This document shows, in pieces, positions 16,729 through 29,813 of a DNA stretch of 38,856 nucleotides; position 1 is the first letter of the stretch; every line of letters starts with the position of its first letter. The stretch is from the NCBI GenBank assembly GCA_947585915.1, contig CANPXJ010000003.1, positions 1-38,856 on the forward strand, written 5' to 3'. This DNA is from an uncultured Bacilli bacterium (GTDB lineage: Bacteria; Bacillota_I; Bacilli_A; RF39; UBA660). Both the position numbers and the translations under genes were made by a program. Under the pieces are notes generated by a model. The model was not told the DNA's origin. It did not search any database and worked only from the letters and a program-made list of their open reading frames with translations.

Positions 16729-17340
16729 ATGTATAAATTAAAAGAACTACCATATCTTTATCAAGATTTAGAACCATATATTAAAACGCATACAATGGGT
16801 TTGCATTATCATAAACACGCCGAGAACTATCTTAATAAATTAAATCAAATACTTACCCAAAATAATTATAAGTTTAATTATCAATTAAACGAGCTTTTAT
16901 TTCATATTGATGAATTTCCTCAAGAAGTGCAAGAAGATATTTTATTTAATTTAGGAGGAGTTATAAATCATAACTTATATTTTTATAGTATAGGTAAAGA
17001 TAGTGCTAAACCAGAAGGCTTATTTAAAAGTTATTTAGAAAGAAAATATCAAAATTTGGATAACTTTTTTCAAAAATTAAAAGAAAAAGCCTTAAAATTA
17101 AAAGGCTCTGGTTATACTTTTTTAGTAATTAATGCAAAACAAGAATTAGATTTAATTAATTTACCAAATCAACAAACACCTTGGCTAATTGGTAATATTC
17201 CTCTTTTTTGTATCGATTTATGGGAACATGCTTACTATTTAACTTATGAAAATGATAAAGAAAAGTATATTGATAATTTTATTGAAATTGCTGATTTTTC
17301 TTTAGCCAGTAAAATATTTAATAATTATTTTAAAGCTTGA
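16729..17340 (+). CDS. Superoxide dismutase, Fe/Mn family
   Basis: A 203-aa protein with the Fe/Mn SOD pattern: [12 protein letters not shown], then [11 protein letters not shown] with the first metal ligand H26, [12 protein letters not shown] (second ligand His ~80), [10 protein letters not shown] and the [12 protein letters not shown] block giving the Asp and last His ligands. It converts superoxide to hydrogen peroxide and oxygen. Typical W-rich positions are replaced (YF for FW, GYTF for GWAW), so it is a diverged member; metal preference cannot be read. An upstream in-frame ATG at 16714 is itself part of the GAAGGAGG site, so the start is 16729. Its last 16 bases overlap the end of the converging collagen-like gene. 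Confidence 0.88.
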
Positions 17341-18788
17341 ATTATAATGGTAACTACTGGATTAATAAATGATGAATAACTGCTTATGTTAGCAATATTA
17401 GGAGCATTTAAGTAAAATGATTTATTACCTAAATTTACAAGTTCAAAAACATCATCAGTTGAAGCATTAAAGATTCCATGCCCAGCTATTTCTAAAACAG
17501 GTTCCGCAAAATTCCAAACAGAACGACCGGCATAAACTGTATCTTCGCCTACTTTTTTAAAACCTATGGCAATTATATCGGTAGTTGGATCAAAGTCTTG
17601 AGTTGTTGTATAAGAAGCATTAACGATAAAATCGATGCGATAAACTCCATCTTTATTAAAAGTTATAGTATTGTTATCAAGATTTATTTCGTTTCTTACA
17701 TCTAAGGACTTAATTTCAATTGGAATTCGACCTTTGCTTGGCACTTCAACACCTTGGGGTTTTTGATCTTCATCATGAAAAGTTACGAAGAAGGCGGCGG
17801 GAATTTCTAATGGTCCTTCAACGCCTTGGGGGCCCTGTGGACCAGGTTCACCCTTATCTCCTTTAGGCCCTTGTTCGCCTTTTTCTCCAGGTAATCCTTG
17901 TTCACCTCTTGGCCCTTGTGGTCCCATTGGTCCTGTATCCCCTTTAGGTCCATCACTCCCATTAATTCCTCTAGGAATAACAAAATCAAATATATGATTT
18001 AAACCGGCTTTACGATCGACGATTTTGGCAAAGGTACTAGCATCACCTGTAGAAACAATTCCTAAACTAATTGTTTCGCCTTCACCAGTGTCACCTTTAT
18101 CCCCCTTTGGTCCTTGAGGACCTGGTGGACCCATCTCACCTTTTTCGCCTTTCCAACCAGTAGGTCCTGGATCTCCTTTTTCGCCAGGAGGACCTTGAAT
18201 TCCTTGTGGTCCAGTATCACCTTTAGGACCGGGGTCACCTTGTGGTCCCATTGGACCTATATCTCCTTTAGGCCCTTGGGGACCTATATCACCTGTCTCC
18301 CCTTTTTCACCTGGAATTCCCTGTTCTCCTTTTTCGCCTTGCTCACCTTGAATTCCTTGTTCACCTTGCGGTCCTTGAGGTCCTCTTGGCCCTTGTAATC
18401 CTGTTTCCCCTTTAGGTCCAATTAAACCTTGCGGTCCAGTTTCCCCTTTAGGTCCACGAATATGACCAACATTTGCCCATTCATTTTCTTCTTCTGACCA
18501 AACATATAAATCATCACCAACTAAATACGACGAACCAATTGTGGAAGTAGGGTGATGAGCAATTAAATCATTATAAGAATCATAATTACCTAAAATTGTA
18601 ACACTAACACCGGCTGGTCCCTGTGGTCCAGTTGGACCTATTTCACCAGTGTCTCCTTTATCACCCTTCGGTCCAGTTGGACCTACACTAGGGGAGTATT
18701 GAGGATATGAATAACAATAGGGGGTACAATTACAATTTTTTTGGGCATTATTAATTTTATCTAAAGCTTTTTGATAACTATTATTCAT
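17325..18788 (-). CDS. Collagen-like G-X-Y repeat protein with C1q/TNF-like C-terminus
   Basis: A 487-aa protein. The N-terminus has a Cys cluster (CNCTPYC, 19-25) and no signal peptide. G-X-Y triplets occupy ~36-60, ~112-236 and ~272-328, rich in [10 protein letters not shown] and GPQGPQG units. They are broken by two inserts: ~61-111 with [19 protein letters not shown], of a type common in phage tail fibres and Firmicute surface filaments, and ~237-271 ending in [10 protein letters not shown]. The C-terminal ~150 residues (from ~335) look like a BclA/C1q beta-sandwich trimerisation domain. BclA-type proteins form glycosylated surface or exosporium filaments. A GT2 gene in the same orientation lies just upstream but is broken. 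AAAGGGATG precedes the start. Whether it is cell-surface or prophage-derived is open. Confidence 0.88.
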
Positions 18789-18835: not shown

Positions 18836-18874
18836 TTAAAAAAAGATAATTTCTTATTTCAAAATTATCTTTTT
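18836..18874 (-). terminator. Terminator of the interrupted GT2 gene
   Basis: A 13-bp stem AAAAAGATAATTT (18840-18852) with AAATTATCTTTTT (18862-18874), followed on the minus strand by T residues. The GT2 stop codon (18854-18856) is in the loop. Confidence 0.75.
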
Positions 18875-20050
18875 ATCATATTCATCAAGTAAATTTTTAT
18901 AATCTTTATTAGTATTTATAGAATTAATATGTTTTATTTTAAGCAAGTTAGAAGTAATTAAGAAGAAAATATAATCATTTAATTCACTACCTACGAATTT
19001 AGCTTTAAAGTATTTATTTTCTTGCCAATTAGGAATATATTTATCTAAAATTTGTAATATAAGTTGAGCAATTTCTTTTTTATTAACAATTTCCTTACTT
19101 TTAAGCACATTATATATTCTTTGATAGATTAGTTTAATAGATATAGAATTAAGCTCTTCTTCATAATCTTTAAGCATATTATCTTTAGCAAATTTATCTT
19201 TCATAGAAATAGTAGCATTAATTAATCCTTTAAGGCCATTTCCTTTTGTAATATCAAGACCTAAAGCAGATGTACTATTTTCTTCTTTACTACGCATGCA
19301 ATAATTATAAATAAGGTTATTGGTATGTAACATATAACGCTCTTTAGCTAAAACATAATAAACAAATTCTAAATCTTCATAAACTTTTTGATTAGATTTT
19401 TCGTTAAATAACGAAGCACAATCATAATGCCAAATTTTATCCCAAAGGGCACAAGTGGTATTACTAAGTTCCTTTTTATCATTTAAAAAATCTAAACTTG
19501 TTTTTGTCCACTTTCTACTTTTAAAAGGAATACTTAAATTAGGAAGATATACGGTGGTTCGACCATTTCCTACTTTATATTTAAAATAGTACATATCTTT
19601 GCAAAGATTAAAATAATTTTCAGTATTAATAAAATCATCACTATCAACAAAACTGAAATAAGGTGTGTTTACTAAATTAAGAGCTGTGAGTCTAGCTTGT
19701 TGTGGCCCTTGGTTTTTGGTGTGAATAACTTGAAAGTTGGTATGATTTTGACACGATTTAATTTTCAATAAGAATTTTGTGAAACATTATGAATTTTGAA
19801 AATTAAATCAAGGGTACAAGCCCCGCAATCTTGTTGCGAGGAATATAGCTTATGCAATACCTATTCAAGCCCCGATAATCTTGTTACGGGGTACTTGACA
19901 ATAAAAATCAATTAAATCACTAGACTTATCTGTAGAACCATCATCAACAACTATAACATTAATATTAGGATGATTTAAACTTTCTAAACATCTTAAAACA
20001 TAGTTTTGGGTATTATAAACAGGAACAATTATAGTTAGTAACTTTTTCAT
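18854..20050 (-). pseudogene. Glycosyltransferase family 2, interrupted by a 141-bp insertion
   Basis: The N-terminal part (19901-20050) reads MKKLLTIIVPVYNTQNYVLR, VVDDGSTDKSS and LIDFYC; the C-terminal part (18854-19753) continues QNHTNFQVIHTKNQGPQQAR with the catalytic FSFVDSDDFI. Joining them gives an intact ~349-aa GT2 of the cell-surface glycan or protein glycosylation type. Between them lies a 141-bp element with a duplicated TTGACA target. The insert plus duplication is 147 bp, so the frame is kept, but it carries at least four in-frame stops, the first a TGA after NKIIGA. The downstream fragment lacks the nucleotide-binding half and cannot be a working enzyme alone. A good promoter, terminator and GGGGG site remain, suggesting a recent event. 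The collagen-like gene just downstream may have been its target (inference). Confidence 0.9.
19754..19894. mobile_element. 141-bp non-autonomous (MITE/REP-like) insertion with 6-bp target duplication
   Basis: The element is flanked by TTGACA at 19748-19753 and 19895-19900, and deleting it plus one TTGACA restores the GT2 gene. It has no coding capacity. One end holds a perfect 14-bp inverted repeat GATTTAATTTTCAA (19755-19768) and its complement (19796-19809) around a 27-base loop. The other end holds two related hairpins with TCTTG loops: CCCCGCAA/TTGCGAGG (19821-19841) and CCCCGATAA/TTACGGGG (19870-19891), each preceded by CAAG, 49 bases apart. G/C-rich hairpins are unlike the surrounding sequence. 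There are no matching terminal inverted repeats, so the mobilising enzyme cannot be named; no second copy was seen in this window. Confidence 0.8.
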
Positions 20051-28940: not shown

Positions 28941-28997
28941 ACAAATGTTTATGGTTGTAAAAAAATGGAAAATATTATGCAGCAAACTTTACAAAAA

Positions 28998-29026
28998 TTG
29001 ACAAAAACGAAAAAATGTGCTATAAT
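28998..29026 (+). promoter_or_regulatory. Consensus promoter of the GDPD-like gene
   Basis: TTGACA (28998-29003), 17 bases, TATAAT (29021-29026) with an extended TGC. Both hexamers are perfect consensus. Transcription should start near 29033, leaving an ~85-base leader. Confidence 0.85.
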
Positions 29027-29030
29027 TTTA

Positions 29031-29097
29031 GCATCAGTGGGGATTGGGTAGCATATAAAAATTGTACTTATAAAGTCCTGATTGAAAGGATTTTTTC
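29031..29097 (+). promoter_or_regulatory. Leader with possible attenuator hairpin
   Basis: The 5' leader contains a terminator-like hairpin, AAAGTCCT (29072-29079) with AGGATTTT (29087-29094) and further T's, ahead of the ribosome-binding site at 29103-29109. An upstream GGGATT (29040-29045) can pair instead with AGTCCT (29074-29079), so the two foldings exclude each other, as in an attenuator or riboswitch. ATCAG (29033-29037) can also pair with CTGAT (29078-29082). It does not match a riboswitch class I recognise. Stems are short, so this is tentative. Confidence 0.4.
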
Positions 29098-29117
29098 TAT
29101 TTAAGGGGGAAAAGAAA

Positions 29118-29813
29118 ATGGAAATAATTGCTCATACTGCATTAACTGCTAAAACAAAAGAAGGATTAGAAAATTTAATTGCCGATGATAGATTTTCAAA
29201 AATAGAATTAGATTTTATTCCAACTAAAGATACAACTTTAGTCTGGGCACATGGTCTAAAAAAAGATAATCAAAAATTAAATCAAACAAATTATAAAGAT
29301 TTAAGCAATGTTTTAACTTTAGATGAAGTCTTAGAAATTGTAAATAATAGAAAGAAATTATTAATTGAAATTAAACATTTTATAGATTACAAACAAAAAT
29401 CGGAAGAGTTATTAAAGAAATTAGAACAATTAAAATATACAAAAGATAATGTGCAAATTCAAAGTTTTAATCAACATGTCATAAAATTTTTATTACAAAA
29501 CAAAGAAAATTTAAAAAATGTTGAAATAGGACTAATAATTAATTTATTTAAGACTTTTAATTATCGAAAAGGAAATATTGAAGGTTTAGAAAACGTGGAT
29601 TTTGTGTCTTTAGCTTCTGAATTATATGAATGGCCTGTTGTCGGAGAAGATTATAAATTATATAGAGATTTATTTTTAAATTCTAAACAATATGCATGGA
29701 CATGGGATTTAGTTTATAAAGAAACAGATAAACGTCTTAATAACTATATTGATAAAAAAGTAGATGGAATTATTACTTTAGCTCCTGAACTTATTTTAAA
29801 TCGTACTAGATAA
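29118..29813 (+). CDS. Glycerophosphodiester phosphodiesterase-like protein
   Basis: A 231-aa cytoplasmic protein with the GDPD barrel pattern: IIAHTAL at 3-9 where the family has AHRG, IELDFIPTKD (~32-41) for the metal-binding E-x-D, VWAHG (~46-50) for the second His, LTLDEVLEI (~71-79), LLIEIK (~86-91) and QSFNQHV (~116-122). GDPD enzymes cut glycerophosphodiesters to glycerol-3-phosphate and an alcohol. The Arg after the first His is Thr here, so substrate or activity may differ. An upstream in-frame ATG at 29082 lies in the leader; AAGGGGG eight bases before 29118 decides the start. Expression is driven by the consensus promoter at 28998 and may be attenuated. Confidence 0.75.
   Translation: MEIIAHTALTAKTKEGLENLIADDRFSKIELDFIPTKDTTLVWAHGLKKDNQKLNQTNYKDLSNVLTLDEVLEIVNNRKKLLIEIKHFIDYKQKSEELLKKLEQLKYTKDNVQIQSFNQHVIKFLLQNKENLKNVEIGLIINLFKTFNYRKGNIEGLENVDFVSLASELYEWPVVGEDYKLYRDLFLNSKQYAWTWDLVYKETDKRLNNYIDKKVDGIITLAPELILNRTR

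Follow-up and report, generated by a model that had tools for sequence, protein, structure and literature searches.

The window, the whole stretch of DNA that was analysed, comprises 38,856 nucleotides from an uncultured Bacilli bacterium of the rabbit gut. It contains a gene for a family-2 glycosyltransferase (18854–20050, minus strand), the coding region of which is disrupted by an inserted stretch of 147 bases that is without genes. The copy of the element occupies positions 19748–19900, with TTGACA at 19748–19753 and again at 19895–19900, and 141 bp between them. The element has no transposase gene, for which it is too short, and the open reading frames listed for it correspond solely to the severed ends of the disrupted gene. 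Removal of the element together with one TTGACA joins the flanks into a single reading frame of 349 amino acids, which matches Glycos_transf_2 with an E value of 3e-24. The ortholog in genome G006 (contig C59), which is 83% identical in DNA sequence over 494 bp, is continuous at the site and contains exactly one TTGACA (TTGACAATA); it is a true empty site. Related unoccupied TTGACA sites are located in G007 (L104) and near window position 28998. The interrupted gene adjoins a gene for a collagen-like protein with long G-x-y repeats (17325–18788, minus strand).

The host genome contains six copies of the element, and the sister species G002 and G003 have one copy each. Five copies contain two hairpins and are 152–154 bp long, including both TTGACA sequences. 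Two others have one hairpin and lengths of 105 and 108 bp (G002:C3 and G000:C1), and the C6 copy is cut by the end of its contig. The copies on C44 and C51, located at unrelated loci, have the same sequence throughout 152 bp, which suggests recent movement of the element. The C71 copy combines a left hairpin of the window type with a right hairpin of the C51 type. A search of 386 genomes of the family for the left-stem pattern gave matches in the genus only, and the named records that match the sequence of the element are rabbit-gut ('Lapin') assemblies of 'uncultured Bacilli'. No copies were found in IMG/VR viral contigs, plasmids, or phages. The preliminary description of the window had proposed a mobile element, the removal of which together with one TTGACA would restore the target gene. 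The 349-residue frame and the G006 empty site agree with this reconstruction, and the six host copies and single copies in G002 and G003 provide the further occurrences that were expected of a mobile element.

The element begins on the plus strand with the left cleavage site (CL, 19748–19753), which is composed of TTGAC followed by A and would represent sequence of the left flank left in place by the insertion. TTGACA forms the left edge of all seven fully read copies, the outer flanks of which differ, and is present once in the G006 empty site. An AT-rich stem-loop, identified by DNA folding (19755–19809), separates the left cleavage site from the left-end (LE) hairpin; its 14-bp stem is formed by positions 19755–19768 (GATTTAATTTTCAA) and 19796–19809 (TTGAAAATTAAATC). 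The LE hairpin (19821–19841) has the sequence CCCCGCAA-TCTTG-TTGCGAGG, is preceded by AGGGTACAAG, and matches the left ends of intact IS200-like relatives (AGGGTTTAATTCCCCG, AGGGTATAATTCCCCG). The CAAG at its 5′ foot (19817–19820) is a candidate left guide (GL), as judged from the position of GL in IS608 (PMC5934647). The right-end (RE) hairpin (19870–19891), CCCCGATAA-TCTTG-TTACGGGG, contains one bulged base. Its sequence varies among the copies (CCCCGATAA..TTACGGGG versus CTCCGT..ACGGGG), and the pairing is kept. The CAAG at the 5′ foot of the RE hairpin (19866–19869), which in the predicted fold forms base pairs with TTG in the right cleavage site, represents a candidate right guide (GR). 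The right cleavage site (CR, 19895–19900) is again TTGAC followed by A, and is invariant in the seven complete copies, in a putative parent copy in genome G431, and in two further IS200-like elements of the host genome.

The two G/C-rich hairpins share the TCTTG loop, are in direct order, and occupy subterminal positions at both ends, as indicated by folding and the alignment of copies. The alignment also demonstrates that terminal inverted repeats are absent (left end TTGACACG.. versus right end ..GTACTTGACA). When folded as single-stranded DNA, the whole element reaches z-scores of −5.3 for the top strand and −5.9 for the bottom strand, with no shuffled sequence as stable, and the two strands fold alike. 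The position of the AT stem between the left cleavage site and the left hairpin is unusual; the cleavage site is ~68 bases along the strand from the hairpin, a greater distance than in any other TTGAC element encountered. All of the features named in the preliminary description, the 14-bp inverted-repeat stem and the two G/C hairpins with TCTTG loops, are present, and the absence of terminal inverted repeats and coding capacity, also stated there, is borne out by the ends and the list of reading frames.

The TTGACA sequences had originally been interpreted as a 6-bp target duplication. A duplication produced by a staggered cut would copy any target, whereas TTGACA is invariant at both edges of the seven complete copies; judging from the aligned copies, it is therefore a fixed cleavage and target sequence of a transposase of the IS200/IS605 type, and not a copy of an arbitrary target. 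For elements of the IS200/IS605 family, insertion takes place on the 3′ side of a fixed sequence of four or five nucleotides and produces no target duplication (PMC7290912). With TTGAC as the cleavage site on the left as well as on the right, the insertion mimics a 6-bp duplication. An apparent target duplication can thus come from a type of enzyme that makes none, which is a trap for annotation. The base following TTGAC is A at all ten sites, compared to a background of 37%. The base after the cut also matters in IS608 (TTAC|C, ~70%) and ISDra2 (TTGAT|G, ~90%), and the cleavage sites of IS608 are recognised not by the protein but by guide bases, located at the 5′ foot of each hairpin, that pair with them (PMC5934647). 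The CL/GL and CR/GR pairing described for IS608 (PMC5934647) is matched here at the right ends that were seen, where the final bases of the guide and of the cleavage site pair with each other, as G-C in the TTGAC elements and as A-T in the TTTAT and TTCAT relatives (L059–L063), the cleavage sites of which were assigned by position and not from empty sites.

The right end of the element is also found in genome G431 (contig C8), where a segment of 44 bp that includes the hairpin, 98% identical, immediately follows the region encoding the C-terminus of a Y1 (HUH) transposase. It lies ~24 nt past the stop codon of a 44-residue frame (GEFWSDGYWIVTVSKHGTEDVIREYVKNQG...), which runs off the end of the contig. 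The 44-residue C-terminus matches PF01797 with a score of 25 bits (cut-off 23), is 58% identical to an intact TnpA, and has relatives among the named IS200/IS605 transposases on plasmids. On the basis of the shared end, the Y1 transposase element of G431 is the likely parent of the element; the part of it that was seen is a C-terminal fragment at a contig end, and its left end is outside this part.

Intact relatives (L059, L060, L061, and L063) are present in the family and class. The intact TnpA of L059, the one that was tested, matches two transposases with solved structures, those of ISDra2 and IS608. The relatives share a pair of ends consisting of a left hairpin AGGGTWYAAttCCCCG and a right end TACCCCG..CGGGGTAGTT, or, when the variation among the four is included, a left hairpin [AC]GGG(T)..CCCCG and a right end TACC[CT]CG..CG[GA]GG(TA)GT. 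Because the intact relatives have the same ends, the first and second G/C hairpins of the element can be assigned as its left and right ends. The host genome contains four Y1 transposase genes. Two closely similar IS200-group elements, L007 and L008 (G000:C73 and C26), are inserted after TTGAC and end in GGTA[GC]TTGAC, and their hairpins are unlike those of the element. A TnpA of the parent subgroup was not found in the host genome, the assembly of which is 92% complete, and a search for the parent TnpA in 292 relatives yielded distant ones only. TnpB-type proteins (PF07282) gave no match over the cut-off in the genus; therefore, the element appears to have no tnpB partner.

The presence of several copies, the fixed TTGACA edges, the empty site, and the right end shared with a Y1 transposase element place the element in the IS200/IS605 family. 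It is very probably a non-autonomous member of the PATE (palindrome-associated transposable element) kind, with IS200 ends and the transposase gene lost, which is moved in trans by a TnpA of the parent type. In a mechanism modelled on the biochemistry of IS608 and ISDra2, the TnpA of a full-length parent would bind the two subterminal hairpins on single-stranded DNA and cut 3′ of TTGAC at both ends of the element to form a single-stranded circle. The circle would insert 3′ of TTGAC, here always TTGAC|A, with the target site read by pairing with the guide bases (CAAG at both hairpin feet), and TTGACA would remain next to the right flank. The AT stem would have to fold in order to bridge the ~68 bases between the left cleavage site and the left hairpin. 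The preliminary description had attributed the movement to a factor encoded elsewhere, and had suggested looking for a transposase or RAYT gene with matching hairpins. The shared right end supports the former, with action in trans being the probable mode; a Y1 transposase with a matching right end is present in G431, and the host genome yielded none that matches. The type of transposase can now be named for a repeat without genes in uncultured gut Bacilli.

The 6-bp direct repeats flanking the element, and the relative with a single copy of the hexamer, would also be expected for a classical MITE of a cut-and-paste (DDE) transposase that produces a true duplication at a preferred TTGACA. Such an origin is very improbable, as TTGACA does not vary between copies, the element lacks terminal inverted repeats like those of a DDE transposon, and its right end is that of a Y1 transposase element, so that the G431 parent contradicts it. 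The hairpins and the Y1-type enzyme are compatible with a REP/RAYT-type repeat moved by a domesticated TnpA_REP, RAYTs being related to IS200 transposases. REP sequences are based on one tagged hairpin that is present in many copies, frequently as inverted pairs, and are accompanied by a single non-mobile RAYT gene. The element has six copies in the host, its two hairpins are in direct and not inverted order, TTGAC is fixed at either border, and an IS200-like right end of its own comes after the linked enzyme, which makes a REP/RAYT system hardly tenable. The earlier suggestion of a RAYT was nevertheless close, in that the enzyme is a related IS200-type Y1 transposase, but not a RAYT. The strong folding and the location of several copies upstream of promoters could point to a structured RNA or a regulatory hairpin kept for its function, such as a terminator or leader. 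We regard this as highly unlikely, given that the window copy disrupts a gene and both strands of the element fold alike. A search of Rfam with the element gave no family at the gathering score and only weak, chance-level matches.

Sequences resembling the AT stem are present elsewhere in this group of genomes. L026 (G431:C23:72–141, reverse strand) is a lone 70-bp perfect palindrome (TTGACACGATTTAATTTTCAA..TTGAAAATTAAATCGTGTCAA) that has the same stem without IS200 hairpins and ends in TGTCAA. At L015/L032 (G006:C89, ~600–730), the right end of another IS200-type element is directly followed by a shortened AT stem and GGGCAC. The stems of L026 and L015 may derive from former left ends or may constitute a separate palindromic unit. 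If the element had a composite origin, its left 63 bp would be a separate palindromic mobile unit, bounded by terminal inverted repeats (TTGACACGATTTAATTTTCAA, like those of L026) and joined to IS200-like ends, for which the SMR elements situated in palindromes of Haloquadratum PATEs (PMC3119063) provide a model. The shared stem and loop of L026 and the stem behind a foreign right end at L015/L032 speak for this origin. However, L059 and L063 have weaker stems at the corresponding position, the L015 stem followed by GGGCAC looks like a decayed left end, and relatives of the palindrome were not found outside this group of genomes; we therefore consider the composite origin unlikely. It is a rival for the origin and not for the movement of the element, which as a whole would still move as an IS200-type element. 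In a more novel but rather unlikely reading, the AT stem would be either a palindromic unit that IS200 ends have captured, or a functional part of an IS200 subgroup that brings the distant TTGAC to the guide.

The element suggests a strategy in which the TTGAC target overlaps the −35 box of promoters and is rebuilt upon insertion, so that promoters may survive. The right border certainly restores TTGACA, and the core of the promoter is thereby kept at sites where a −35 box was hit. A −10 box is located 16–17 bp downstream at 4 of 10 TTGACA insertion sites (C44, C1, G003:C24, and the G431 parent copy), compared to 17 of 108 other TTGACA sequences (p = 0.08). The bias of insertion toward promoters proposed previously is plausible but only suggestive, the difference not being significant on ten sites. 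If this reading of the AT stem is true, then together with TTGAC serving as both cleavage sites it would make the element a promoter-sparing inserter that rebuilds the −35 box. Separately, the window contains at 28981–29135 a repeated promoter-leader-terminator block of ~130 bp, which is also present in G000 (C1, C71, C62, and C54) and in sister genomes. The block consists of a conserved TCARTGGGGATTGGKTAGCA followed by a hairpin and a T run, precedes different genes across the genus, has no match in Rfam, and is a candidate cis-regulatory leader.

The element shares with IS608 (CL TTAC) and ISDra2 (TTGAT) a Y1 transposase, subterminal hairpins, guide bases at the 5′ foot, and insertion 3′ of a fixed short sequence with a preference for the +1 base, whereas its target is TTGAC|A, its left and right cleavage sites are the same, and it contains no transposase gene. 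REP and REPIN sequences moved by RAYTs are similar in having hairpins served in trans by an IS200-related enzyme, but their copy number, hairpin order, and borders do not fit. Among known systems the element comes closest to the PATEs of Haloquadratum walsbyi and to a remnant of IS605 in Halanaerobium that resembles PATEs (PMC3119063, PMC7290912), which are likewise short, non-coding, and devoid of terminal inverted repeats, and have near-terminal IS605-type palindromes and a targeting oligonucleotide at the border. Haloquadratum PATEs include copies shortened between the hairpins by repeat-mediated deletion (PMC3119063), and the one-hairpin copies on C1 and G002:C3 look like the core deletions of HqIRS46. 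The element differs from PATEs in its sequence and host, in the 14-bp AT stem before the left hairpin, and in its parent, which, by what is seen, is an IS200-group element with tnpA. The designation 'undescribed' in the preliminary description holds for the sequence itself but not for the kind and anatomy, which are those of PATEs (PMC3119063); the element adds a new member to a kind of passenger element that is already known.
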